Translations under genes and position numbers: made by a program
Shown: piece by piece, positions 580 to 15,781 of the stretch
Layout of the letters: every line of letters begins with the position of its first letter
How positions within the stretch are numbered: the stretch's first letter is position 1
Origin: Sphingobacteriales bacterium 44-61
GTDB lineage: Bacteria > Bacteroidota > Bacteroidia > Chitinophagales > Chitinophagaceae
Direction: 5' to 3'
DNA length: 64,000 nt
NCBI GenBank assembly: GCA_001898405.1
Contig: MKTW01000011.1
Location: forward strand, 68,801 to 132,800
Notes under the pieces: model-generated
Seen by the model: the letters and a program-made list of their open reading frames with translations, nothing else
Told to the model about the DNA's origin: nothing
Database searches by the model: none

Positions 580-641
580 CCGGCCTCTACCAGCATTGTT
601 CCTTAGCATCACATTCATTCAACAGATTGCTAAGGCCAACA

Positions 642-3068
642 ATGAAAAAGACGCTGCTGCTACTCACGCTTATTGCCCGGCTACTGACAACCGGTGCCCA
701 GGATGCCGTTATCCCTGTCGGCGAGCTTAGAAAATTTTCAATTACAAATAACCAGTTGGATATTACCGCGACTAACGGCTATGTGAGAATACAGTTATAT
801 AGTCCCACAGTGGTCAGGGTCAGGATCTCTGCTCAGCCATTCCGGGACGATTTTTCCTATGCCGTCATAGCCCGCCCTTCCGGTGCGATCATCAAACCGG
901 TGCAAACCGCAGAAGAGATCCGGTTCAGCACCGATTCGCTGAAAGTAATAATTGGAAAAAAGCCTTTCTCTATCCGCTTTCTTACACCGGACGATAAGAT
1001 CATTAATGAAGACGAGCCCGGCCTGGGCAGTTCCTGGATCGGTACTGAAATAACCACCTATAAACATTTGCAGGAAGGGGAACGCTTTATCGGTCTTGGT
1101 GAAAAAACCGGGAACCTCGACCGGAAAGGCAATGCTTACACCAACTGGAACTCGGATGTGTATGGTTACACTGTTTCGCAAGACCCTTTATATTCTACCA
1201 TTCCCTTTTATATCGGCATTCATCACGGATTGCAATACGGGATATTCTTTGATAACAGCTTTCAATCGGATTTTAATTTTGGTGCCAGCAATAACCGCTT
1301 TTCTTCTTTTGGTGCAAAAGGTGGTGAAATGAATTATTACCTGATCTACCACCGGTCTGTTGCCGGCATCATCAACGATTACACCTGGCTCACCGGACGC
1401 ATGAACATGCCTCCGCTCTGGAGCCTGGGTTACCAGCAAAACCGCTATTCTTATTATCCCGATACAGAAGTGTTTCGCATTGCGCACACGCTCCGGGAGA
1501 AGAAGATCCCTGCGGATGGCATTACACTGGACATACATTACATGGATGCTTACAAATTATTTACCTGGAATAAAGAACGCTTTCCCGACCCGGAAGGCAT
1601 GATAGACAGTTTAGGAAAAATGGGATTCAGGACCACGCTGATCGTTGACCCGGGCATTAAAGTAGAAAAGAATTATCCTGCTTATGAAAGTGGAATTAAA
1701 GAAAATATTTTCCTGAAATATGCCGATGGTCAGCCTTACACTGGCGAAGTATGGCCTGGCTGGTGCAATTTCCCTGATTTTACCAGTGAGAAAGCCAGGA
1801 ACTGGTGGAAAACGCAGATCACTGCCTACACACGTACCGGTGTGGCCGGTATCTGGAACGATATGAATGAGATCGCCACCTGGGGGCAAAAAATGCCGGA
1901 TAATGTGTTGTTTGATTATGATGGACATCCCACCACGCATTTAAAAGGGCATAATGTATTTGGATTGCAGATGGCGCGTTCCAGTTATGAAGGCGCCAGG
2001 CAGGCGCTGCAGAAAAGGCCTTTCATACTTACCCGTGCCGGTTATGCAGGCCTTCAGCGCTATACCGCATTATGGACGGGCGACAACCGCGCAGAAGATG
2101 CACACATGCTGGCAGGAGTGCGATTGCTGACCAGCCTTGGTTTGAGCGGTGTGGCTTTTACCGGTATGGATATTGGCGGCTTCACCGGCAATCCAACGCC
2201 CGGCCTGTATACACGCTGGATGCAACTTGGCGCTTTTGTCCCTTATTTCAGGAATCATACAGCATTCAATACAAAATCGGCCGAACCATGGTCATTCGGA
2301 GAAGATGTGCTGGAGATAACGCGTAATTATATCAATCTCCGCTACCGGATGCTGCCTTATCTCTATTCCACTTTTTATGAAGCTACGCAAAACGGGTTGC
2401 CGGTAGCACGTTCGCTCGCGATCGATTACACCCACGATGCACAGATCTATAGCCCCGTTTTTCAAAACCAATACCTGTTTGGACAATCATTGCTGATAAT
2501 GCCCCAGGAGGGCGAACGGTCTTTTGCCAAAGTATATTTTCCTGCAGGCGATTGGTACAATCTGTATAACGACGATACAGAAAAAGGCAATACGGAAAAG
2601 CTGCTGGAACTGTCGCCGGCTTTATTGCCGGTGTATGTTAAGGCCGGCAGCATTATCCCTATGCAATCGCTGATCCAAAGCACTATAGAAAAACCATCTG
2701 ACACGCTGGTGCTGCATGTATATAAAGGAAATGCGGCCAGTGTTTTTGATTACTATGAAGACGATGGGGAGAGTTATCGTTACGAGCAGGAAGATTTCTA
2801 TAAAAGAAGCATCCGCTTTGACCCCGCGGCTAAAAGTATCATCCTTGATAAACCAACCGGTAACCGGTCATCCAGGTATCGTTTCATCCGCCTCGCACTT
2901 CACGGGTTTAAAGAAACAGCGGTAAAAATAAACGGAGCGCAGGCCAGGGTGAACGATTGGCGCGGATCATTCATCGATGCCGTTCCTCCGCCAGGACCAG
3001 TACCCGCTTATGAAGCAAAAAGCCTGGTATTGGATAACGATCCTGGTATTGTAGTGATCAGTTATTAA
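642..3068 (+). CDS. GH31 alpha-glucosidase, exported (SusB-like role)
   Basis: 808-residue glycoside hydrolase family 31 enzyme that should release glucose from the non-reducing ends of alpha-glucans or malto-oligosaccharides in the periplasm. A signal peptide (residues 1-20, ending TTGAQ) precedes an N-terminal beta-sandwich (about 25-230), the TIM barrel (about 250-600) and C-terminal beta domains. The barrel carries GIWNDMNEI with the nucleophile Asp407, and WTGDNRAED with the acid/base Asp481, both at their usual spacing. The ATG at 642 was chosen over an in-frame TTG at 627 because it begins a clean signal peptide. It is the first gene of a same-strand cluster GH31-SusC-SusD-SusE-GH13, which matches a starch Sus locus. 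Alpha-xylosidase or another alpha-specificity cannot be excluded from the sequence alone. Confidence 0.93.
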   Translation: MKKTLLLLTLIARLLTTGAQDAVIPVGELRKFSITNNQLDITATNGYVRIQLYSPTVVRVRISAQPFRDDFSYAVIARPSGAIIKPVQTAEEIRFSTDSLKVIIGKKPFSIRFLTPDDKIINEDEPGLGSSWIGTEITTYKHLQEGERFIGLGEKTGNLDRKGNAYTNWNSDVYGYTVSQDPLYSTIPFYIGIHHGLQYGIFFDNSFQSDFNFGASNNRFSSFGAKGGEMNYYLIYHRSVAGIINDYTWLTGRMNMPPLWSLGYQQNRYSYYPDTEVFRIAHTLREKKIPADGITLDIHYMDAYKLFTWNKERFPDPEGMIDSLGKMGFRTTLIVDPGIKVEKNYPAYESGIKENIFLKYADGQPYTGEVWPGWCNFPDFTSEKARNWWKTQITAYTRTGVAGIWNDMNEIATWGQKMPDNVLFDYDGHPTTHLKGHNVFGLQMARSSYEGARQALQKRPFILTRAGYAGLQRYTALWTGDNRAEDAHMLAGVRLLTSLGLSGVAFTGMDIGGFTGNPTPGLYTRWMQLGAFVPYFRNHTAFNTKSAEPWSFGEDVLEITRNYINLRYRMLPYLYSTFYEATQNGLPVARSLAIDYTHDAQIYSPVFQNQYLFGQSLLIMPQEGERSFAKVYFPAGDWYNLYNDDTEKGNTEKLLELSPALLPVYVKAGSIIPMQSLIQSTIEKPSDTLVLHVYKGNAASVFDYYEDDGESYRYEQEDFYKRSIRFDPAAKSIILDKPTGNRSSRYRFIRLALHGFKETAVKINGAQARVNDWRGSFIDAVPPPGPVPAYEAKSLVLDNDPGIVVISY

Positions 3069-3106
3069 AAGTTCTGTTACACATTGTTCATTTTAACTTG
3101 TCATAT

Positions 3107-6067
3107 ATGCATTCATCTATCATTCCTAAATTGCTCCTGCTTGGCTGCCTCTTTGTTTTGAGCACTATTGCAGTAAAAGCGCAGGGCAGCATCCAGGTAA
3201 CAGGTTCTGTTAAGAACGAAAAAGGAGAACCTGTTGACCTTGCTTCTATTAAGATCATCGGCACAGACAAAGGGACCATCACTGATGCCAAAGGGAATTT
3301 CACGCTTACCGCACCTTCCAATGCGCAATTGCTGATCTCCCATGTGGGATATGACAGCCTTGAAGTAACGGCGCAGGCATCATTGAATGTGATACTGGTA
3401 CCAGCTGCAAGCACGCTGAATGATGTAGTGGTGATCGGTTATGGTACACAGCGCCGGAGGGAACTGACCGGTTCTGTAGCCACTGTAACAGCAAGGGATT
3501 TTCAGCAGGGAACGATCACTACGCCAGAGCAATTGATCGCCGGTAAAGTAGCCGGTGTATCGGTTACTTCCAACGGTGGTTCGCCAGGTGCAGGCAGCGT
3601 GATACGAATCCGTGGTGGCGCTTCACTGAATGCCAGTAATGACCCGCTGATCGTGATAGATGGTGTGCCGCTGAGTGGCAATAATATTTATGGCGCTTCC
3701 AATTCCTTAAGCCTGATCAACCCGAATGATATCGAGTCGTTCACTGTGTTGAAAGATGCCGCTGCAACGGCTATCTACGGTTCCAGGGCTTCCAATGGAG
3801 TGATCATTATCACTACTAAAAAAGGAGCACAGGGAAAGCCTGTGTTCAGTTTCTCTACACAGGTATCTGCGGCCACACTGGCAAAAAAAATGGATGTGCA
3901 ATCAGCAACTGATTTCCGTAAATACGTGGACTCTTTGGGTGGAGGCACATTTGATAATGTGCATACCTATAAATCACTGTTAGGTTCTGCCAGTACGGAT
4001 TGGCAGGATGAAATATTCCAAACGGCCATCAGTACGGACAACAACCTGAGCGTGTCCGGTGCAATGAAGAACATGCCTTACCGTATTTCTGCAGGCTACC
4101 TGAACCAGGATGGTTTATTGAAAACCGATAACCTGCAACGGATCTCTGCAGGCATATCCTTAAGCCCGCGCCTGCTCAATAACCATTTGAAAATAGATAT
4201 CAACCTGAAGGGCGCGTATAATAAATCCAGGTTTGCCAACCAGGCTGCTATCAGCTCTGCTGTGTATTTTGATCCTACCCAGCCGGTGCATGCTACTTCG
4301 CCTTATGGTAATTATTATGAATGGGCTTCAGTGGACCCTGGCTCGGGTGCTGTTACCCTGAACAAACTGGCCCCACGGAACCCTGTGGCGCTTCTTGAAT
4401 TGTATCACAATAAAAGTGATGTGAAAAGAAGTTATGGCAATGTGCAGTTCGATTATTCTTTTCATTTTCTTCCGGAATTGCATGCCAATCTCAATCTTGG
4501 ATATGATATAGCAAAAGGCGAAGGAAAGATTGATGTGCCTGCTTTTGCCGCGCAGAATTTCCTGGATGGTGGACAGCGCAATAAATATTCCAACGAGATC
4601 AACAACAAGGTCGCTGAGTTCTACCTCAATTATACAAAAGAGCTAAAGGACATTAAAAGCAATATCAATGTAACGGCAGGGTACGGCTATTACAATAATT
4701 TATCTACGAACGATAATTACCCGGTCTTCCGTGCCAATGGCGACACGATCCCTGGCACCAAGCCTTTGTTTGCTTTGGACAAACCGGAAAACACGCTGAT
4801 CTCTTATTATGGCCGTTTGATCTATACATTCGATAACAAATATATACTGGCAGCTTCACTCCGCACAGATGGATCATCGCGGTTTGCGCCCAATACCCGT
4901 TGGGGAACTTTCCCTTCCGTGGCATTCACCTGGAGGTTGAACCGTGAATCATTCCTGGAAAATTCAAAAACGTTCTCTGATCTTAAGCTGCGTCTGAGCT
5001 ATGGCGTAACGGGCAACCAGGATGGCATTTATAATTATCCTTATCAATCCATTTATTCGCTCAGCGGCAACAGCTCCAATGTTCTGTTTGGGAATACCTA
5101 CTATAGCATGGGAACGCCTGCTGCTTATGATGCCGGCATCAAATGGGAGCAGACGGCTACTTATAATGCCGGCCTTGATTACGGCTTCCTGAATGGACGC
5201 ATCTATGGCAGTCTTGATTTTTATTTCAAGAAAACAAAGGACCTTTTAAATACCATACCTATTCCCGCCGGTTCCAATTTCAGCAGCACGATCCTGACAA
5301 ATGTGGGCAATGTGGAGAATAAAGGTGTTGAGCTGGCTTTGAATGCAGGCATTATCCGCAATGCCCGCTTCTCCTGGGACGCAGGTTTTAATATCGCCTA
5401 TAACAACAGCAAGATCACCAAACTGACGGCTACAGAAGATTCCACCTATCCTGGTACGCTTACAGGCAATGGTGTGATACAGATCAATACGGTGGGTTAT
5501 CAGCCCAGTTCATTTTATGTATATCATCAGCAATACAAGGATGGAAAGCCTGTGGAAGGTGTGTATGTGGATGTGAATGGTGATGGTATCATTAATCAGA
5601 ATGATCTGTACCGCTATAAATCCCCTGCGCCGAAGTTTATCCTGGGCTTCTCTTCTCAGTTTACCTGTGGCAAATGGGCTTTGAGCACTGTGTTGCGGGC
5701 CAATATCGGCAACTATATGTATTATGGCATTGCTACCGGCTCTGTAAAAAGCAATATTCTCAACCCCCTGGGTTACCTGGCCAATAGCCTGAATGATGTG
5801 TATAATACGGGGTTCACGAATGGGCAGGTACAATCTGATTATTATATCCAGAACGCGTCTTTCCTGAAAATGGACAACCTGGGCCTGTCTTACAATCTCG
5901 GCAGGATCATACACGATAAAGTAGGATTGCGGATCATGGCAAACTGCCAGAACGTGTTCACCATTACAAAATACAAGGGACTTGATCCGGAAGTCTTTGG
6001 CGGTATAGACAATACCATCTATCCAAGACCACGCACTTTCGTGCTCGGTGCAAGCCTTCAATTCTAA
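3107..6067 (+). CDS. susC: SusC-family TonB-dependent receptor (starch-type locus)
   Basis: 986-residue outer-membrane importer that works with the SusD lipoprotein encoded next to take up oligosaccharides using TonB energy. After the signal peptide (1-23, cut after VKA) comes a carboxypeptidase-regulatory-like domain (about 25-105), then NDVVVIGYGTQRRRELTG, typical of the linker into the plug, the plug with IRIRGGASL and VIDGVPL (about 115-235), and the 22-strand barrel ending in Phe (ASLQF). An EF-hand-like loop, DVNGDGIINQND, lies in the late barrel as in most SusC proteins. The ATG at 3107 is preferred to a TTG at 3098. Its gap to the upstream GH31 is 38 bases and to SusD 23 bases, so these are probably cotranscribed. 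Confidence 0.95.
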   Translation: MHSSIIPKLLLLGCLFVLSTIAVKAQGSIQVTGSVKNEKGEPVDLASIKIIGTDKGTITDAKGNFTLTAPSNAQLLISHVGYDSLEVTAQASLNVILVPAASTLNDVVVIGYGTQRRRELTGSVATVTARDFQQGTITTPEQLIAGKVAGVSVTSNGGSPGAGSVIRIRGGASLNASNDPLIVIDGVPLSGNNIYGASNSLSLINPNDIESFTVLKDAAATAIYGSRASNGVIIITTKKGAQGKPVFSFSTQVSAATLAKKMDVQSATDFRKYVDSLGGGTFDNVHTYKSLLGSASTDWQDEIFQTAISTDNNLSVSGAMKNMPYRISAGYLNQDGLLKTDNLQRISAGISLSPRLLNNHLKIDINLKGAYNKSRFANQAAISSAVYFDPTQPVHATSPYGNYYEWASVDPGSGAVTLNKLAPRNPVALLELYHNKSDVKRSYGNVQFDYSFHFLPELHANLNLGYDIAKGEGKIDVPAFAAQNFLDGGQRNKYSNEINNKVAEFYLNYTKELKDIKSNINVTAGYGYYNNLSTNDNYPVFRANGDTIPGTKPLFALDKPENTLISYYGRLIYTFDNKYILAASLRTDGSSRFAPNTRWGTFPSVAFTWRLNRESFLENSKTFSDLKLRLSYGVTGNQDGIYNYPYQSIYSLSGNSSNVLFGNTYYSMGTPAAYDAGIKWEQTATYNAGLDYGFLNGRIYGSLDFYFKKTKDLLNTIPIPAGSNFSSTILTNVGNVENKGVELALNAGIIRNARFSWDAGFNIAYNNSKITKLTATEDSTYPGTLTGNGVIQINTVGYQPSSFYVYHQQYKDGKPVEGVYVDVNGDGIINQNDLYRYKSPAPKFILGFSSQFTCGKWALSTVLRANIGNYMYYGIATGSVKSNILNPLGYLANSLNDVYNTGFTNGQVQSDYYIQNASFLKMDNLGLSYNLGRIIHDKVGLRIMANCQNVFTITKYKGLDPEVFGGIDNTIYPRPRTFVLGASLQF

Positions 6068-6090
6068 CTAACGATTAAAACACTTCCTTT

Positions 6091-7689
6091 ATGAAGAAAT
6101 ATCCTTTTTATATAAATCTGTTGGGATGCCTGGCAGCAGCGATCGTATTAAGCTCCTGCCATAAAGATCTCGATCTTCAGCCGCTTAATTCAAACACAGC
6201 GGAAAAGCAATACAGCACGCTGGCTGGTTATAAGCAGGTGCTGGCAAAAGTGTATGGAAGTTATTCATTAGTGAGCAGCACAGGTGTAGGGAACTCGGAT
6301 ATCAATGTGCCGGGCATTACCGATGCAGCCACTACTGATTTTGTGAGAGCCTACTGGAACCTGCAGGAACTTACTACCGATGAAGCCGTTTGTGCCTGGA
6401 ATGATGCCAGCCTGCAAAGCTTTCATAACCTCAACTGGGCTTCTTCCAATGTGCTGATCCAGGCCCTCTATGCAAGAAGCCTGTTCCAGATCACTGTCTG
6501 CAATGAGTTTGTCCGTCAGTCGACCGATGAAAAGATAGCGGCACGCGGGTTTAAAGATGCTGATGCAACGGAGATCCGTCACTTCAGGGCAGAAGCGCGT
6601 TTTCTCCGGGCATTTCAATATTGGGTACTGATGGACCTTTTTGGAAGACCGCCTTTTGTTACGGAAAACGACCCGATCGGTAAATACATCCCCAAACAGA
6701 TTGAAAGGGCCGATCTTTTTAACTATGTAGAAAATGAGTTGAAAGCAATCGATGCGGATCTGGTAGCTCCCCGGCAGAATGAATATGCCCGGGCCGACCA
6801 GGCTGCTGCATGGGCATTGCTCGCCCGTGTATATCTCAATGCCAAAGTGTATACCGGTACGGAACGTTACACAGATGCGATCACCTATGCATCAAAAGTG
6901 ATCGGTGCGGGATATATACTGAAGAGCGATTTCAAGACCCTGTTCATGAGTGATAATGATGAGGCCAATACAGAAGTGATCCTGCCGATTGCGTATGATG
7001 CTACCAATTCGCAGAATTATGGCGGCACCACGTTCCTTGTTTGCTCTTCTCATGGCACCAACCCTCCGGACAACCAGGCGTTTGGTATTCCTGGTGGCGG
7101 ATGGCTGGGCAATCGCAGCACGCAAAACCTGCCGCAGGTATTTGGTGATTACAGCGGCAATGCAGACAAGCGTGCATTGTTTGGCCCCGGTAACCTGGAA
7201 GTAAGGGATGTGCTGACGTTCAATGATGGAGTAGGCGTATATAAATTCAACAATATTACTTCCGGTGGTGCCACACCTCCTTCACCCAATGGTGTACTGT
7301 GCAGTGTTGATTTTCCTTTATTCAGGCTGGCTGAAATGTATCTGGTGTATGCAGAAGCGGTATTGCGTGGCGGCACTGGTGGCAGCAGCACTACTGCTTT
7401 GCAATATTTCAATGCACTGCGCACAAGAGGATATGGAAATACCAGCGGAAACCTGGGCAGCATCAGCCTGCAGGATGTATTGAATGAACGTCAGCGTGAA
7501 TTGTATTGGGAAGGGTTCAGAAGGACCGACCTCATCCGTTATGATCAATTCACCGGCGGTTCTTATTTGTGGCCCTGGAAAGGGGGCGTGAAAGATGGCC
7601 GCTCTGTGGATGCGCATTATAGCTTGTTCCCCATACCTGCTGCCGAAACAATTGCTAACCCCAATCTGAAACAAAATCAGGGATACTGA
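6091..7689 (+). CDS. susD: SusD/RagB-family surface lipoprotein
   Basis: 532-residue starch-binding-type lid protein that pairs with SusC. The signal peptide ends in a lipobox (VLSSC, Cys near residue 23) followed by the usual linker and the NTAEKQYSTLAG start of the mature SusD fold. Internal TPR-like helices include ATEIRHFRAEARFLRAFQYW and ARADQAAAWALLARVYLNA, and the C-terminus has NERQRELYWEGFRRTDLIRY, the strongly conserved SusD signature, followed by FPIPAAE. The length is normal for the family. It lies 23 bases after SusC and 25 bases before SusE. Ligand identity is inferred from the GH31 and GH13 neighbours, not from the protein itself. Confidence 0.95.
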   Translation: MKKYPFYINLLGCLAAAIVLSSCHKDLDLQPLNSNTAEKQYSTLAGYKQVLAKVYGSYSLVSSTGVGNSDINVPGITDAATTDFVRAYWNLQELTTDEAVCAWNDASLQSFHNLNWASSNVLIQALYARSLFQITVCNEFVRQSTDEKIAARGFKDADATEIRHFRAEARFLRAFQYWVLMDLFGRPPFVTENDPIGKYIPKQIERADLFNYVENELKAIDADLVAPRQNEYARADQAAAWALLARVYLNAKVYTGTERYTDAITYASKVIGAGYILKSDFKTLFMSDNDEANTEVILPIAYDATNSQNYGGTTFLVCSSHGTNPPDNQAFGIPGGGWLGNRSTQNLPQVFGDYSGNADKRALFGPGNLEVRDVLTFNDGVGVYKFNNITSGGATPPSPNGVLCSVDFPLFRLAEMYLVYAEAVLRGGTGGSSTTALQYFNALRTRGYGNTSGNLGSISLQDVLNERQRELYWEGFRRTDLIRYDQFTGGSYLWPWKGGVKDGRSVDAHYSLFPIPAAETIANPNLKQNQGY

Positions 7690-7714
7690 TCCCTTCATCC
7701 TTAAATAAGATACT

Positions 7715-8809
7715 ATGCGAACAATAGTTAATTATATACTGGTAATTGTATTGATCTTCCTGGCATCCTGTAAAAAAGATGGAGAACAGTATAATCTGCA
7801 GGACGGAAATTTTGAAACGAATTCCTTAAGCGCTTCATCCACCAGCCTGGTATTAGCGGCAGCTAATGATGAGGAGAACGCCGTCAGTTTTCAATGGGGC
7901 CAGGCTGATTTTGGTAAACAGCCGGTAGTGAGTTATGTGTTGCAACTGGACACACCTGCCGACACAGCAGCTAATCATTGGACCACTGCCAAGAATTTTA
8001 CGGTCCCCGCCAACCTTCTGCAATATTCTTTTTTAACAAAGGACCTGAATAATCTATTGAACACAATGGGGCTTACTCCCGGAGCCGCTAATGCCATAGT
8101 GGTGAGGATCAAAGCAGATGTGAACCAATATAACGGCGCAACTTCTTCTATCGCCTCTGTGTATACAAATGTGGTAAGCCTGCAAATAACACCGTATGGC
8201 CTTAGCTTGTATGTGCCGGGCGATTACCAGGGTTGGAATCCCGCTGCAGCACCACAACTGGCGCCGGTAGCAGGCCGCCCGGGTTTGTATGAAGGATATG
8301 TGTATATGGCCGGGAGCGGCACGCATTATTTTAAATACACCAATGCACCCGACTGGGACCATACTAATTACGGTGATGGAGGCAATGGCAGTTTCAGTAC
8401 CGATGGGCTGGCAGCAGGTTTGTCTGTTCCCGATGGAGGCTACTACTATCTCACTGCTGATCTTAACAACAATACCTGGACGGCAACCAAAACCACCTGG
8501 AGTATACTGGGTGATGCAAGTCCCGGTGGCTGGGATACCGATACCCAATTGACGTATGATGAAACAACACAGGTATGGAAGGTTACTGCCAATATGATCA
8601 AGAACGGTTCATTCAAGTTCAGGGCCAATAATGCCTGGGCGCTTGACTTCGGCGTTGATAATAACGGCAACCTGCAATATGCGGATAATCCTTTTCTGGG
8701 TTATACACCGGGATTGAACAATCTTTCTGTTGGAACTGATGGTAATTACACTATCACACTCGATCTGCATATCGCCGGTCATTATACTTATATTTTACAG
8801 AAGAACTAA
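7715..8809 (+). CDS. susE: SusE/SusF-like starch-binding lipoprotein
   Basis: 364-residue surface lipoprotein with lipobox FLASC (Cys about 19) followed by KKDGE. The N-terminal part (about 25-150) has the SusE immunoglobulin-like pattern with SLVLAAANDEENAVSFQW. Two repeats follow that look like the SusE/SusF outer-membrane carbohydrate-binding modules: about 160-258, beginning LYVPGDYQGWNP, and about 259-362, beginning WSILGDASPGGWD. Each has a Trp-rich start and a strand with FKYT or FKFRA. Such modules bind starch on the cell surface and lend affinity rather than catalysis. Position between SusD and the GH13 enzyme agrees with a Sus-type starch operon. Confidence 0.88.
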   Translation: MRTIVNYILVIVLIFLASCKKDGEQYNLQDGNFETNSLSASSTSLVLAAANDEENAVSFQWGQADFGKQPVVSYVLQLDTPADTAANHWTTAKNFTVPANLLQYSFLTKDLNNLLNTMGLTPGAANAIVVRIKADVNQYNGATSSIASVYTNVVSLQITPYGLSLYVPGDYQGWNPAAAPQLAPVAGRPGLYEGYVYMAGSGTHYFKYTNAPDWDHTNYGDGGNGSFSTDGLAAGLSVPDGGYYYLTADLNNNTWTATKTTWSILGDASPGGWDTDTQLTYDETTQVWKVTANMIKNGSFKFRANNAWALDFGVDNNGNLQYADNPFLGYTPGLNNLSVGTDGNYTITLDLHIAGHYTYILQKN

Positions 8810-8830
8810 ACATGCGAAAGCATTCATGAA

Positions 8831-10204
8831 ATGGAAAAGTTGCTTATTTTATTTTCGTGGCTGTTGATGGCCTGTGGCAAGAAGGACAGCATTCCTGAGA
8901 ATCCCGATCCACCAACGCCTCCGCAAGAAACCCCCGTTCAATACGGAACTCCTTTTGCTGAAGTGCCCGATGCGCAGGACGCAGTAATTTATCAGGTCAA
9001 TATCCGCGCTTTCAGCAATCAACACAATTTTAAAGGTGTGCAAAGCAGGTTGGACGCTATAAGAGCACTCGGGGTGAATGTCATCTATCTGATGCCTGTT
9101 TACCCCGTGGGAGTCGAGAAATCGGTGAACTCGCCTTATTGTGTCAGGGATTTCAATTCGGTGAATGCTGAATTCGGCACACTGGAAGACCTCCGTGTGC
9201 TGGTTGCTGCTGCGCACGAAAGAAAGATGGCGGTGATCCTTGATTGGGTAGCCAATCATACTTCATGGGACAATGCCTGGATAGCTAATAAATCGTGGTA
9301 TACACAGAATGCAAGTGGCAATATCATCAGTCCGGCCAATACTGGTTGGAACGATGTAGCTGATCTTAATTATGATAATGCTGATATGCGGAAGGCCATG
9401 ATCAAAGCGATGAAGCAATGGGTCTATACAGCCAATGTGGACGGCTATCGTTGTGATGCAGCCGATTTTATTCCTGCTGATTTCTGGGAGCAGGCTATAG
9501 ATTCGCTGAAGAAGATCAGTACGCATAAATTATTATTGCTGGCCGAAGGAACAAGGGCTGATCATTTCACAGCAGGTTTCCAACTAAAATATGGGATGGG
9601 TTTTTATTATTATATGGTAGATAAAGTGTATCATGATGGCCGTTCCGCGCAGGCAATCGATTCTGTAAACACTGTAGAATACATTTCCTCCAATACTGCC
9701 AGCAGGGTAGTGCGCTATATCAGCAATCATGATGTGAACAGTAGTGACGGAACGCCGCTTGAATTGCTGGGCGGACAAAAAGGATCGCTCGCAGCATTTG
9801 TGGCGGCGGCGTATTCCAAATCAGTTCCTATGATCTATAATGGACAGGAAGTGGGCTGCCCGGTAAGATTGAACTTCTTTAATACGAGTACTACCATTGA
9901 TTGGACCATCAATCCTGACATGACGGAGGAATATAAAAGGATCATCGCTTTGCGAAACAGTAATAAAACAATAAGGGAAGGCGTATTCACTTCTTTCAGT
10001 ACACCGGATGTATTTGCTTTTACGAGGACGGTGAACAATGAAAAAGTATGGGTAATGGTAAATCTGCGGAATGCAGATGTTACTTACCAGGTACCGGCGG
10101 CAATGATTAATAGTAACTGGAAAAATGCTTATGATGGAACAACTGTTTCCGTACAGCAGCAAATAGCCCTGGAGCCTTATGAATATATAGTGTTGGAGAA
10201 TTAG
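8831..10204 (+). CDS. GH13 alpha-amylase-family lipoprotein (SusG-like role)
   Basis: 457-residue glycoside hydrolase family 13 protein, expected to cut alpha-1,4-glucan at the cell surface or in the periplasm. The lipobox is WLLMAC (Cys about 15). All four conserved GH13 regions can be read: DWVANHTS (region I), GYRCDAADF with the nucleophile Asp209 (II), LLAEGTR with the acid/base Glu239 (III) and ISNHDVN with Asp301 (IV). The C-terminal region after about residue 380 forms the usual short beta domain. The gene starts 21 bases after the SusE stop and closes the starch-type part of the cluster. It is shorter than SusG and lacks an inserted binding module between the barrel strands. Confidence 0.92.
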   Translation: MEKLLILFSWLLMACGKKDSIPENPDPPTPPQETPVQYGTPFAEVPDAQDAVIYQVNIRAFSNQHNFKGVQSRLDAIRALGVNVIYLMPVYPVGVEKSVNSPYCVRDFNSVNAEFGTLEDLRVLVAAAHERKMAVILDWVANHTSWDNAWIANKSWYTQNASGNIISPANTGWNDVADLNYDNADMRKAMIKAMKQWVYTANVDGYRCDAADFIPADFWEQAIDSLKKISTHKLLLLAEGTRADHFTAGFQLKYGMGFYYYMVDKVYHDGRSAQAIDSVNTVEYISSNTASRVVRYISNHDVNSSDGTPLELLGGQKGSLAAFVAAAYSKSVPMIYNGQEVGCPVRLNFFNTSTTIDWTINPDMTEEYKRIIALRNSNKTIREGVFTSFSTPDVFAFTRTVNNEKVWVMVNLRNADVTYQVPAAMINSNWKNAYDGTTVSVQQQIALEPYEYIVLEN

Positions 10205-10284: not shown

Positions 10285-10587
10285 ATGTCTGATCTTAAAC
10301 TGAGTATACCCCATAACCTGCCCGCTGAAGAAGCATTGAACCGCATAAAGGACTTGCTGGGAAACCTGAAAAAAGATCACAAAGACCTGGTGGATAATGC
10401 TGAAGAAAGCTGGGAAGGCAATACCGGTCAATTCAGCTTTTCTGCAAAGGGATTTGACCTGTCGGGTACGATCAATGTTAGCCCCTCCGGTGTTGATATT
10501 GATGCGAAGCTTCCGTTTGCATTATCTTTCTTTAAGGGAAAGATCTCACAGGTGATTACGGACAAAGCAAAAGAATTGCTTTCGTAA
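10285..10587 (+). CDS. PHA-granule-regulation-family small protein
   Basis: 100-residue soluble protein of the polyhydroxyalkanoic acid system family (PHA_gran_rgn). The pattern LSIPHNLPAEEALNRIKDLL, then SWEGNTGQFSFSAKGFDLSG and the end SFFKGKISQVITDKAKELL is the family fold: a helix followed by a small beta-sheet of the kind seen in polyketide-cyclase-like proteins. No signal peptide. Family members occur in many bacteria without polymer genes and their function is largely unknown. It sits alone between the starch-type genes and the galactanase genes, 80 bases after GH13 and 124 before GH53; nothing suggests a role in glycan use. Confidence 0.75.
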   Translation: MSDLKLSIPHNLPAEEALNRIKDLLGNLKKDHKDLVDNAEESWEGNTGQFSFSAKGFDLSGTINVSPSGVDIDAKLPFALSFFKGKISQVITDKAKELLS

Positions 10588-10711
10588 GTATCATCTTTTA
10601 TTTTTTCAGGTCTTTCAAAACTGCGTAGGCGTTTTCCCCTGGGTTGGAAAAATAATGATCAGCGCCGGAAGCAGTTCCTTCTATCCTGGACTCCATGGGC
10701 AAATTACATTA

Positions 10712-11779
10712 ATGGACATAAAAAGAATAAAACCGCAGATGTTCCGCACACTTTTTCTTGGCACCATCCTCTTTCTTGGATCAGGACTTTCCTGCAAAAA
10801 GAGTGCGGGGCGCAATGGGCCTGAACCACCTGGTCCGGAACCGCCGGTAACAACCGGTTTTGCCAAAGGTGCAGATGTAAGCTGGATAACACAGATGGAA
10901 GCAGAGGGCAGGAAGTTTTATAATAGCGCAGGTGTGCAAACAGAAGGAATGCAATTGCTGAAAAGTTTAGGCATGAACACGGTCCGTTTGCGTGTGTGGG
11001 TCAATCCTGCCGGGGGCTGGAACAACCAGGCAGATGTAGTGGCTAAAGCGGTACGTGCAAAAAACCTGGGCATGCGGGTGATGATAGATTTTCATTATAG
11101 CGATAACTGGGCCGATCCCGGTAAGCAAACAAAACCTGTGGCCTGGGCTTCTCTTGATTTTGCAGGATTGAAAACAGCTTTAAGCGATCATACAAAATCT
11201 GTACTGAGTGCTTTAAAGAATAACGGTGTTGCGCCTGAATGGGTAGCTGTAGGTAACGAGACAAATGACGGTATGCTTTGGCCCGATGGCAAAGCTTCCA
11301 CCAACATGAGCAGTTTTGCACAATTGGTGAACACAGGGTATGATGCAGTAAAAGAAATATTCCCATCTGCAAAAGTGATCGTGCATATCTCAAACGGGTA
11401 TAATAATTCCTTGTTCCGATGGATGTTTGATGGCCTGAAAAATAATAATGCGAAATATGATGTGATCGGGATGTCTCTCTATCCTTCACCAGCAGACTGG
11501 TCAACACTGGCAACACAATGCCAGGCGAACATGAATGATATGGTAAGCCGCTATAATAAAGAAGTAATGGTTTGTGAAGTGGGTATGAGCTGGGACCAGC
11601 CTAATGCCAGCAAGGCATTCCTGGCAGATATTATTGCTAAGGTGAGATCCGTGGCCGATAATAAAGGGCTGGGAGTTCTTTACTGGGAGCCCGAAGCATA
11701 TAATAACTGGCAGGGATACACATTGGGCGCATTTGACAATTCCGGCAAGCCCACCATTGCGCTGGATGCATTTAATTAA
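10712..11779 (+). CDS. GH53 arabinogalactan endo-beta-1,4-galactanase, lipoprotein
   Basis: 355-residue GH53 enzyme, which cuts the beta-1,4-galactan side chains of pectin. A lipobox, GLSC, follows a hydrophobic stretch, so it is predicted to be a lipoprotein. The (beta/alpha)8 barrel (about 50-355) begins GADVSWITQME and shows NTVRLRVWVNP, IDFHYSDNWADPGKQ, GNETNDGMLWPDG with the acid/base Glu183, and VCEVGMSW with the nucleophile Glu289. Start: an ATG at 10712 or 10739; both precede the lipobox and the choice is open. The fused GH53 domain of the next gene is a paralogue: for example DFHYSDNWADPGKQ here against DFHYSDYWADPGKQ there. Confidence 0.93.
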   Translation: MDIKRIKPQMFRTLFLGTILFLGSGLSCKKSAGRNGPEPPGPEPPVTTGFAKGADVSWITQMEAEGRKFYNSAGVQTEGMQLLKSLGMNTVRLRVWVNPAGGWNNQADVVAKAVRAKNLGMRVMIDFHYSDNWADPGKQTKPVAWASLDFAGLKTALSDHTKSVLSALKNNGVAPEWVAVGNETNDGMLWPDGKASTNMSSFAQLVNTGYDAVKEIFPSAKVIVHISNGYNNSLFRWMFDGLKNNNAKYDVIGMSLYPSPADWSTLATQCQANMNDMVSRYNKEVMVCEVGMSWDQPNASKAFLADIIAKVRSVADNKGLGVLYWEPEAYNNWQGYTLGAFDNSGKPTIALDAFN

Positions 11780-11901: not shown

Positions 11902-14900
11902 ATGAGAGTTAACAGCCAGCAAATAATCCTCGGTATCATTCTTACACAATTATTTTTTAATCAACCAGTTTTTTCACAAAATGGTGAAATAAGAAAGCAT
12001 ATCAGTCTTGATGAAGGCTGGCGTTTTCATTTTGGCCATGCGGCTAATGCTGAGAAGGACTTTAATTTCGGCATCGCCAATATCTTTTCGAAATCAGGGG
12101 CAGGTTTGCATACACCTATCGATACCAGGTTTGTAGATACAACCTGGCGTCAGCTCAATATTCCGCACGATTGGGCAGTGGAATTGCCTTTTGTGAATGT
12201 CGCCAATAACGATGTCACTTCACATGGATATAAGCCGGTCGGAGGCCTGTTTCCCGAAACAAGCATTGGCTGGTACCGGCAACGGTTTACTGTAGAGCCT
12301 GCAGATAGTGGTAGCCGTTTCCAATTGCAATTCGATGGCATTTTCCGCGACGCTAAAATATGGCTCAATGGATTTTACCTGGGCAATAATACAAGCGGTT
12401 ATGTAGGCGTATCGTATGATGTAACGGATTATGTCCGCTTCAAAGGGGAGAATGTGCTGGTGGTGAGGGTGGATGCTACGCAATACGAAGGATGGTTTTA
12501 CGAGGGTGCAGGTATATACAGGCATGTATGGCTCAATCAATATAATAATGTTCATATTGCGGATGGCGGTCTGTTTGCTTATTCAGAGGTGAAAGGGAAT
12601 GCGGCTACCGTAAATATTGAAACAACAGTGGAAAACCAGGGGCTTGCCTCTTCGGGTGTAACAGTCTATTCCTATGTCACCAGCAGGGATGGAAAATTGC
12701 TCAGCCAGTCGAAAGAACAGCCTGTATCGCTAGCGGTGAATAGCAGGAGCACGGTGAAGCAAAGATTGCAGGTGAATAATGCCCGGCTCTGGTCGTTGGG
12801 AGATCCTTATCTGTATCGGGTAGTGTCTGTTGTGAAACAGGATGGTAAAATAATAGATCAGGTGCAACACCGGTACGGTATACGGACAATTGCTTTTGAT
12901 GGGGAAAAAGGGTTTTTCCTGAATGGAAAACCGGTGAAGCTGCAAGGGACCAATAACCACCAGGACCATGCAGGTATCGGCAGTGCGTTACCGGATTATA
13001 TGCATTATTACCGCATCAGCCTTTTAAAAGATCTTGGCGCAAATGCTTACCGCACCAGTCATAATGCGCCCAATACAGAATTGCTGGATGCCTGCGACAG
13101 TCTCGGTATGCTGGTGGTGGATGAGCAGCGCCTGCTCAACAGCAGCCCGGAATATATGAGTCAGTTTGAACGGCTGATCCTGCGCGACAGGAATCATCCT
13201 TCCGTTTTTATCTGGTCGATCGGCAATGAAGAGGGATGGATACAAACCAATTCAACAGGTAAGCGGATCGCACAAACATTACTGGCCAGGCAAAAAGAAC
13301 TGGACCCTTCCCGTACCAGTACCTATGCGGCCGATCTGCCCAATGTATTTAATGGAGTGAATGAAGTGATCCCTGTGCGTGGGTTTAATTACCGCCATTT
13401 TGCAGTAGCGGATTATCATAAGGACCATCCGTCACAACCACTGATGGGAACGGAAATGGGCAGCACCGTTACTACAAGAGGTATTTATGAAAAGGATAGT
13501 ATCCGCGGTTATTTGCCTGACCAGGACATTACTGCTCCTTGGTGGGCCAGCCGTGCAGAACAATGGTGGCCGCTTGCTGCTGAAAATTCTTATTGGGCAG
13601 GTGGTTTTGTATGGACGGGTTTTGATTACCGTGGTGAGCCTACTCCATTTGAATGGCCTAATATCAATTCCCATTTTGGTATTATGGATATGTGTGGTTT
13701 CCCGAAAAATATTTACTACTACTATCAATCCTGGTGGACTGATAAGGACGTGTTGCATATATCCCCGCACTGGAATTTCAATAAGCAATGGGGAAAAATA
13801 AAACCGGTGGATGTATGGGTCAATTCCAATGCAGACAATGTAGAACTTTTCCTGAATGGGAAAAGCCTGGGCAAGCAGGATATGCCGCGCAATGGACACC
13901 TGCAATGGAAAGTGGAGTATGAACCGGGTACGCTGGAAGCTGTCGCTTATAAGAAAGGAAGGAAGTTGACCGCCAAAATAGAAACGACCGGGCCACCTGC
14001 AGAAGTTGTGGTAACGCCATATAAAACAACCATGCTTGCTGATGGTACGGACGTGTCGGTGGTCAATATCACCGTAGTGGACAAAGAGGGCAGGGAAGTG
14101 CCCAATGCTGATAACCTTATCCGTTTCAAACTGGAGGGGCCGGGTAAGATCATTGGTGTAGGCAATGGCGATCCCAGCAGCCATGAAGCTGACAAATGCA
14201 TGGATGGTTTGTGGCAGCGCAGCTTGTTCAATGGGAAATGCCAGGTGATCATACAGGGGCTTAAAAAACCCGGTATGATCAAATTTGAAGCAACAGCAAC
14301 AGGCTTATATCCCGGTTCAACAGATATTCTTACTGTTACTCCGGCAAGCATTGCACAGGCTTCTATTGATCCCGTTTATATTTTAAGGGGTGAGGCGGCA
14401 AAGGCAAGGGAAACGACTAAAATGTTGGGAGCTGATATCTCTTTTCTTCCTGAACTGGAAGACAGGGGCATTAAGTTTTCCGACAATGGCGTGGAAAAAG
14501 ACGCGATGCAGATCTTGAAAGATCATGGCTTTAATTATATACGGTTGCGCATCTTTAATGATCCGGCGCAAGACAGCGGATACTCTCCCAAAAGGGGGTT
14601 CTGCGATCTTGAACATACAAAGCAGATGGCTAAAAGGGTGAAAGCAGCAGGGCTGAAATTATTGCTGGATTTTCATTACAGTGATTACTGGGCCGACCCT
14701 GGTAAGCAATACAAACCAGCTGCCTGGAAAGGATTGTCGTTCCCGGAATTGAAGAAAGCATTATACGATTATACAAAGAAGGTGATGCAGGAATTGAAGG
14801 ACCAGGGCACGGTGCCTGATATGGTGCAGATAGGCAATGAGATCAATCACGGTATCGTTTGGCCAGACGGGAATGTTAGCAATTTTGATGGACTGGCTCA

Positions 14901-15324
14901 GTTAGTGAGCGCCGGAACGGCGGCTGTGAAAGCTGTAGACCCTACTGTGATCATGATGCTGCATGTGGCGCTGGGCGGGCAAAATCATGAATCAGTATTT
15001 TTTATAGATAATATGGTGGCGCGTGGCGTTCATTTTGATGTGATCGGGGAGTCTTATTATCCTAAATGGCATGGGACCCTGGATGATCTGCGGGACAACC
15101 TGAATGACCTGGCAAGACGCTATGATAAGGATGTGATAGTGGTGGAGTATTCACAATTAAAAGAGGAGGTAAACAAGATCGCTTTTGATCTGCCAAATGG
15201 AAAAGGAAAGGGCACTTGCATCTGGGAACCGTTAAGTACCTGGGAGGCCATATTCGACAGGCAGGGAAAATCGAATGAATTGCTGTTGAAATACGATACC
15301 ATTTCAAAGCAGTTTATCAAATAA
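11902..15324 (+). CDS. GH2 beta-galactosidase fused to GH53 galactanase
   Basis: 1140-residue exported protein joining two complete enzymes. Residues 1-25 are a signal peptide (VFSQ cut). The GH2 part follows: sugar-binding jelly roll (about 30-215), Ig-like domain (215-325), TIM barrel (325-610) with WSIGNEEGW (acid/base Glu443) and LMGTEMGST (nucleophile Glu518), then two beta-sandwich domains (about 640-825). From about residue 841, MLGADISFLPELEDRG starts a full GH53 barrel with IGNEINHGIVWPDG (Glu980) and VVEYSQ (Glu1082). The predicted joint activity is endo-cutting of beta-1,4-galactan plus release of galactose from the ends. It follows a stand-alone GH53 gene by 122 bases. No stop or frameshift occurs at the joint, so the fusion is read through in one frame. 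The GH2 specificity is inferred from the partner. Confidence 0.92.
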   Translation: MRVNSQQIILGIILTQLFFNQPVFSQNGEIRKHISLDEGWRFHFGHAANAEKDFNFGIANIFSKSGAGLHTPIDTRFVDTTWRQLNIPHDWAVELPFVNVANNDVTSHGYKPVGGLFPETSIGWYRQRFTVEPADSGSRFQLQFDGIFRDAKIWLNGFYLGNNTSGYVGVSYDVTDYVRFKGENVLVVRVDATQYEGWFYEGAGIYRHVWLNQYNNVHIADGGLFAYSEVKGNAATVNIETTVENQGLASSGVTVYSYVTSRDGKLLSQSKEQPVSLAVNSRSTVKQRLQVNNARLWSLGDPYLYRVVSVVKQDGKIIDQVQHRYGIRTIAFDGEKGFFLNGKPVKLQGTNNHQDHAGIGSALPDYMHYYRISLLKDLGANAYRTSHNAPNTELLDACDSLGMLVVDEQRLLNSSPEYMSQFERLILRDRNHPSVFIWSIGNEEGWIQTNSTGKRIAQTLLARQKELDPSRTSTYAADLPNVFNGVNEVIPVRGFNYRHFAVADYHKDHPSQPLMGTEMGSTVTTRGIYEKDSIRGYLPDQDITAPWWASRAEQWWPLAAENSYWAGGFVWTGFDYRGEPTPFEWPNINSHFGIMDMCGFPKNIYYYYQSWWTDKDVLHISPHWNFNKQWGKIKPVDVWVNSNADNVELFLNGKSLGKQDMPRNGHLQWKVEYEPGTLEAVAYKKGRKLTAKIETTGPPAEVVVTPYKTTMLADGTDVSVVNITVVDKEGREVPNADNLIRFKLEGPGKIIGVGNGDPSSHEADKCMDGLWQRSLFNGKCQVIIQGLKKPGMIKFEATATGLYPGSTDILTVTPASIAQASIDPVYILRGEAAKARETTKMLGADISFLPELEDRGIKFSDNGVEKDAMQILKDHGFNYIRLRIFNDPAQDSGYSPKRGFCDLEHTKQMAKRVKAAGLKLLLDFHYSDYWADPGKQYKPAAWKGLSFPELKKALYDYTKKVMQELKDQGTVPDMVQIGNEINHGIVWPDGNVSNFDGLAQLVSAGTAAVKAVDPTVIMMLHVALGGQNHESVFFIDNMVARGVHFDVIGESYYPKWHGTLDDLRDNLNDLARRYDKDVIVVEYSQLKEEVNKIAFDLPNGKGKGTCIWEPLSTWEAIFDRQGKSNELLLKYDTISKQFIK

Positions 15325-15349: not shown

Positions 15350-15378
15350 AAACCCTGGCATTGCCAGGGTTTAAATTT
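15350..15378. terminator. Bidirectional terminator hairpin
   Basis: A 10-bp perfect stem (AAACCCTGGC / GCCAGGGTTT) with a 3-base loop lies between the convergent stops at 15324 and 15401. It is flanked by an A-run on the left and TTT...AATTTTT on the right, so it can work as a Rho-independent terminator in both directions. Confidence 0.85.
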
Positions 15379-15400: not shown

Positions 15401-15781
15401 TTAGCTTACGTTTTTACCTACGATCTTAGCCAGGTCGAACATAGAGATCTGGCTTTTGCCACCAAACAATGTTTTCAGTTTGGCATCGGCATTGATCATA
15501 CGTCTGTTTTTTGTATCCTGTAATTTGTTCTTTTTGATATATTCCCAGATCTTTTTGATGATCTCTGTGCGGGGCAATGATTTATTACCGATCACGTCTG
15601 CGAGTGCTGCGCTTGGTGCCAGTGGTTTCATGAATGCCGCGTTGGGTTTGCGTGCTGATTTTTTCTTAGCTACTTTTTTTGCTGCTTTTTTAGGAGCTGC
15701 CTTTTTTGCTGCTTTCTTAGGGGCAGCTTTTTTTGCTACTTTTTTAGCGGCTTTTTTTGCTGCTTTTTTCTTTGTAGGCAT
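15401..15781 (-). CDS. SWIB/MDM2-domain protein with histone H1-like Lys/Ala tail
   Basis: 126-residue basic protein. Residues 1-47 are repeats built from Lys-Ala-Ala-Lys and Ala-Pro-Lys-Lys units, like the tails of bacterial histone H1-like proteins, and should bind DNA without sequence preference. Residues 50-126 form a SWIB/MDM2 fold: FMKPLAPSAALADVIGN, LPRTEIIKKIWEYIKKNKLQ and NRRMINADAKLKTLFGGKSQ. In eukaryotes the SWIB fold belongs to chromatin remodellers; in Bacteroidota and Chlamydiae small SWIB proteins of this type are known but little studied. It is monocistronic, convergent with the GH2-GH53 gene and ended by the shared terminator. The nucleoid role is an inference. Confidence 0.85.
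   Translation of the reverse strand: MPTKKKAAKKAAKKVAKKAAPKKAAKKAAPKKAAKKVAKKKSARKPNAAFMKPLAPSAALADVIGNKSLPRTEIIKKIWEYIKKNKLQDTKNRRMINADAKLKTLFGGKSQISMFDLAKIVGKNVS

Follow-up and report, generated by a model that had tools for sequence, protein, structure and literature searches.

The 64 000-nucleotide stretch of DNA analysed here (the window) encodes a GH2–GH53 fusion which, judging from its sequence and by analogy with the galactan pathway of Bacteroides thetaiotaomicron, rather probably combines two galactan enzymes in a protein that is conserved in Bacteroidota, acts in a similar pathway and is most likely periplasmic. The gene (11902–15324, + strand) was identified from the ORF call, Pfam and NCBIfam matches and catalytic motifs, and starts with ATG and runs for 1140 codons with no internal stop. 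Its 1140-residue product consists of a Sec-type signal peptide followed by a GalA-type GH2 enzyme (residues 37–808), a short linker and a GH53 barrel (residues ∼839–1140). The first-pass annotation had read the frame as a full GH2 enzyme joined to a full GH53 enzyme, and the ORF, Pfam, NCBIfam and the predicted models all bear this out. Its choice of catalytic residues was also correct: Glu443, Glu518, Glu980 and Glu1082 lie in the expected motifs (WSIGNEE, MGTEMGS, QIGNEIN and VVEYS, respectively) and all four are invariant in the 37 aligned homologues (37/37), which counts against decay of either half. A sequencing artefact at the GH2/GH53 joint was considered and rejected as very unlikely, as the same single frame recurs elsewhere in the window's family (38 of 40 stretches, chosen for a GH53 lying in a frame of more than 1000 residues) and in all of the 80 named loci described below.

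The GH2 part (12010–14325, + strand; acid/base Glu443, nucleophile Glu518) comprises Pfam GH2 domains at residues 35–806, the last of which before the linker is the C-terminal Ig-like domain C5 (residues 704–806; 14011–14319, + strand; Pfam). The NCBIfam model for GalA β-galactosidases (NF041462) covers residues 37–808 with 1069.7 bits against a curated cutoff of 900, and the match spans model positions 1–762 of 763; the difference from this near full-length relative is the GH53 domain that follows GH2, which is absent from the model. In the predicted structure of the mature fusion (mean pLDDT 78.1, with the GH2 barrel region weaker and including stretches under 50) the GH2 part aligns with solved GH2 enzymes at Z scores of 26–33. 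A β-galactosidase activity of the GalA type is predicted for this half. The solved relatives include, besides β-galactosidases, a GH2 enzyme active on λ-carrageenan (9bey), and two genomes carry the same type of GH53 fused to GH95, so that the GH2 half could instead have a target other than β-1,4-galactan, such as sugars of side chains or caps, and clear the way for the GH53 half. This reading is quite improbable, given that the GH2 half scores above the curated GalA cutoff and that a galactokinase-like gene lies directly downstream of the fusion in 14 of 90 loci (with a Pfam galactokinase match confirmed on one).

The GH53 part (residues 839–1140; 14416–15321, + strand) is matched by PF07745 at residues 842–1084 (311.1 bits, cutoff 24), but only over profile positions 2–245 of 340, and because this match is partial the structure was predicted to check the claim of a full GH53 enzyme. 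Both the model of the mature protein and that of the isolated GH53 domain (mean pLDDT 88.2) contain eight strands and eight helices, with the acid/base Glu980 on strand 4 and the nucleophile Glu1082 on strand 7. Residues 839–1137 (813–1111 in model numbering) align with the endo-β-1,4-galactanase IaGal (7osk) over 295 residues with a Z score of 35.9 and an r.m.s.d. of 1.9; 7osk is the top solved match of the GH53 part and also comes first in a Foldseek search with the domain alone. According to the models, the GH53 half is a complete (β/α)8 barrel. Both catalytic glutamates are also invariant in 41 of 41 GH53 domains of fusions.

What sets this barrel apart is its rim. The closest solved relatives of the fused GH53 by sequence are the endo-β-1,4-galactanases IaGal, which ranks first (E = 7.6 × 10−70) and is also closest by fold, and BlGal (1r8l and 1ur0). 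Unlike in these enzymes, loops 7 and 8, which there carry the calcium site and the −3 and −4 subsites according to PMC8447715, are much shorter in the fused domain. The distance from the nucleophile to the Trp of the WEP motif is 24–26 residues in 99 fusions and 26 in 20 unfused members of the fused-type GH53 clade, compared with 33–36 in 32 stand-alone GH53s; loop 8, taken as the distance from WEP to the next conserved Phe, is seven residues long in 97 fusions and 4–7 in the 20 unfused clade members, compared with 12–13 in 31 stand-alone GH53s (two fused and 13 stand-alone proteins without a motif match were dropped from these counts). For BtGal, a hand count from the alignment gives 29 and 14 residues, respectively. 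The Trp of WADP, to which the −2 tryptophan of PMC8447715 corresponds (Trp115; chain number minus 26), is retained throughout, in the 99 fusions, the 20 unfused clade members and the 32 stand-alone GH53s alike.

The same source places the −3 subsite of IaGal and BlGal on loop 8 and links both the size of the products and subsites −3 and −4 to this loop. It also reports that galactotriose is left uncut by IaGal and BlGal but is degraded to galactose and galactobiose by fungal enzymes, and that BtGal, in which loop 7 is markedly shorter than in other solved GH53 enzymes, degrades down to galactobiose (PMC8447715). With loops 7 and 8 shortened, the −3 subsite located on loop 8 and the −2 Trp of WADP kept, a short glycone rim is predicted, and the short loops point to few glycone subsites and to action on short oligosaccharides. 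BtGal already has a short loop 7 yet is an endo-enzyme, so that short loops alone are no proof of a preference for short substrates. The shortening could also be read as a sign that the GH53 half has become a binding module without cleavage activity, but this appears very improbable in view of the retained WADP Trp and the invariance of Glu980 and Glu1082 across the aligned fusions and fusion GH53 domains. More tentatively, and with some doubt attached, the fused GH53 could represent an uncharacterized Bacteroidota clade of periplasmic enzymes with a very short glycone rim, which would cut short galacto-oligosaccharides to galactobiose and galactose and hand these to the attached β-galactosidase. 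No description of this short-loop clade was found in the open-licence literature searched.

A stand-alone GH53 gene is present just upstream of the fusion (10655–11779, + strand; ORF and Pfam), as the first-pass annotation had noted; these are the only two GH53 genes in the source genome. Its called ATG is probably too early, with the lipoprotein-like signal peptide beginning near residue 20 or 29 and the true start probably at 10712 or 10739. The accompanying description of this gene as a paralogue of the fused domain stands only in a loose sense, since the two GH53 domains share 41% identity over 273 aligned residues and fall into separate clades divided by a branch with 100/100 support in the careful tree described below. 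The best solved relative of the neighbour is BtGal (6gpa), which aligns with it from end to end (E = 8 × 10−96). A recent tandem duplication was accordingly rejected on the grounds of the low identity, the separate clades and the different best solved relatives (BtGal for the neighbour, IaGal for the fused domain).

The signals of the two proteins also differ. The fusion carries a Sec-type signal peptide (residues ∼1–26, ending in PVFSQ, with the cleavage point placed by eye; 11902–11979, + strand) in which the lipobox Cys is absent by pattern, in agreement with the earlier claim of one exported polypeptide. A crude lipobox pattern occurs in eight of 110 complete fusions and in 49 of 56 stand-alone GH53s, in a set that was not deduplicated. 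By eye, the eight matches in fusions mostly reflect a Cys inside the hydrophobic core and one belongs to a different fusion (L166, discussed below), while one fusion that stands in two records (L057 and L115) has an ambiguous Cys; in the remaining seven stand-alone GH53s, including that of the window, a Cys is seen at the lipobox place. This distribution makes it probable that the stand-alone GH53 is a lipoprotein and that the fusion is a soluble periplasmic protein.

The surroundings of the fusion were surveyed in 101 distinct fusions, of which 82 loci extend 4 kb upstream and 33 extend 7.5 kb upstream. Of the 82 loci, 36 have a same-strand, stand-alone GH53 no more than 4.5 kb upstream, which directly adjoins the fusion in 31, and a SusC- or SusD-like gene is present somewhere in 25 of the 33 longer loci. 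No stand-alone GH53 that could serve for outer cutting was found within 4.5 kb upstream in the other 46 of the 82 loci. This, together with the export of the fusion, would fit an extracellular protein whose GH53 half cleaves the polymer and whose GH2 half trims the freshly made ends at the same site. Such a location is considered unlikely, however, as the lipobox pattern is absent from 102 of the 110 complete fusions and no type 9 sorting domain appears among the Pfam or NCBIfam matches listed at E = 0.001 for the window fusion. The proposal of the first-pass annotation that galactose is produced at the site of cutting is thus not supported: the signal patterns suggest instead that the lipoprotein GH53 cuts outside and that the fusion acts in the periplasm on imported fragments.

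A periplasmic fusion would fit into a known scheme. As described in PMC8002723, the order in B. thetaiotaomicron galactan utilization is a surface GH53, SusCD and a periplasmic GH2. The present genes resemble this galactan PUL (BT4667–BT4673) in having a GH53 of the stand-alone gene's type (6gp5 and 6gpa, the latter with the E value given above) and a GH2 β-galactosidase, and in many related loci SusCD adjoins the GH53. They differ in that GH53 and GH2 are separate proteins in B. thetaiotaomicron as described there, whereas the present GH2 is fused to a second GH53 of a different kind, and in that the GH53 pair of this genome has no SusCD of its own adjoining it. In the corresponding sequence of steps, the neighbouring GH53 lipoprotein would cut β-1,4-galactan at the cell surface and a SusC/SusD pair would import the oligosaccharides; the GH53 half of the fusion, with short loops leaving mainly the −1 and −2 glycone subsites, would then release galactobiose and galactose from these, and the attached GH2 half would take the remaining galactose units off the nonreducing ends. 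A role of the fusion in galactan breakdown, as first annotated, is plausible, and both enzymes are complete. This is not a new kind of system, but a fused architecture on a known galactan pathway theme.

No galactan SusC/SusD pair was found beside the GH53 genes in the window. The nearest SusCD belongs to a starch-type cluster directly upstream of the GH53 pair (GH31–SusC–SusD–SusE–GH13; 627–10204, + strand; Pfam and NCBIfam), which was assigned as such because ten of the 12 best SusD matches, its own included, lie in the order SusC–SusD–SusE–GH13. Membership of the GH53 pair in this cluster is the less likely reading and was disfavoured, given these relatives and the small PHA_gran_rgn gene that lies between (10285–10587, + strand). 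Elsewhere in the genome no clear galactan SusCD was found; a second SusCD, on contig 18, is located beside a weak GH13 match. Just 3′ of the fusion there is a terminator-like stem of ten pairs, T-rich on both sides (15350–15372, no strand assigned; consensus match only). Ten such stems were found in the region compared with 5.8 expected, and promoter-like sites are not enriched (12 compared with 12.2 in shuffles). Beyond the stem, on the opposite strand, lies a gene for a SWIB-domain protein whose N-terminal tail is rich in Lys and Ala and resembles histone H1 (15401–15781, − strand).

The first-pass annotation regarded the pairing as uncommon and proposed a database search for further GH2–GH53 fusions. 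This search returned many, and the supposed rarity fails within Bacteroidota. GH53 is present in 147 of the 294 sampled genomes of the window's family, and GH2 and GH53 share one frame in 56 of the 294, counted as a match to window residues 634–1140 covering at least query positions 3–502 of 507 in a single frame. The frames are 1017–1177 residues long in 55 of these 56 genomes and 778 residues long in the remaining one (G019). By the same test, four of 395 genomes of a phylum sample carry the fusion, all four from the window's own family, and a further genome from another family of the class (G633) has a distant GH2–GH53 fusion (L166, 40% identity) in addition to these four; the fusion is thus rarer outside the window's family. 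Among named genomes, a scan gave 442 relatives, and the best 80 of the 442 all span both halves, in one frame in 80/80 by gene calls, several of which are cut by contig ends. These loci come from several Bacteroidota families, with carriers including Lacibacter cauensis, L. luteus, Arcicella rosea, Flavihumibacter stibioxidans and Pinibacter, and further Flectobacillus, Flavisolibacter nicotianae, Cellulophaga sp. and Flavobacterium; for metagenome bins, the family assignments may be loose. Within the window's genus two genomes were compared and the other one lacks the fusion, so that the gene is patchy in its distribution. The fusion is a common design in Bacteroidota, little noticed rather than rare. 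No description of a GH2–GH53 fusion was found in the titles or abstract starts of the open-licence papers listed, a search outside which the CAZy catalogue lies.

Two trees bear on how the fusion arose. In a quick tree of 67 rows with a midpoint root, unfused members of the fused-type GH53 clade nest inside the fused ones. In a careful tree of 59 rows, rooted on the stand-alone GH53s and calculated without eight rows (L062_4, L075_4, L125_1, L153_5, L166_6, L166_7, L167_1 and L167_4, the last six being long-branched), 15 unfused rows lie outside one clade of 34 rows with support of 100/96; besides 29 fusions, this clade contains four proteins in which GH2 is represented by the C5 domain only and one split pair. 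A single joining event in the main fused clade would be compatible with both trees, and whether free forms are older within it depends on the root. The four C5–GH53 proteins (L155, 5917–7296, and L162, L163 and L164; Pfam on one) keep the GH2 C-terminal Ig-like domain but do not contain the GH2 barrel. They fall within the fused clade, where they form an eight-row group together with four fusions (100/99). This position suggests that their barrel was lost and that they are possible remnants of fusions. A stepwise gain may be an alternative, since a grouping of the fusions without these four proteins was not rejected by the AU test (p = 0.239).

Other joinings were also encountered. In two genomes of one genus, the fused-type GH53 is linked to GH95 (L065, 7833–11123, − strand, by Pfam, in G030; L168, 4688–7960, + strand, by length, GH53 score and place in the tree, in G124). 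The GH2–GH53 fusion of G633 (L166, 5914–9387, − strand) has a GH53 nearer to the stand-alone type on a long branch and adjoins a stand-alone GH53 and SusCD-like genes; it is probably a separate joining. Taken with the GH95 cases, this makes it seem that exo-type enzymes have become fused to GH53 on more than one occasion. Separate or split arrangements occur as well: in G646 (L167) 12 bases separate a GH2 gene from a GH53 gene in the same frame, with an intervening stop, in Novosphingobium humi (L153) GH2 and GH53 lie in two overlapping frames, and in G200 (L156) the two halves of the fusion do so. One metagenome record (L149, 3–3140, + strand) encodes in one frame a GH2 cut by the contig end, a GH53 and a C-terminal α/β-hydrolase of the BD-FAE esterase kind.

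What had been presumed a rarity is a standing design in Bacteroidota that keep two dissimilar kinds of GH53 enzyme in a single pathway. If products are indeed handed on from the fused GH53 to its partner, the gain from this would explain the repeated joinings, of the fused-type GH53 to GH2 and separately to GH95, and elsewhere of GH2 to the other GH53 type. If the short-loop GH53 acts on periplasmic oligosaccharides, there would be a testable division of labour in the galactan pathway, and the fusion would be a natural two-step enzyme for the release of galactose.
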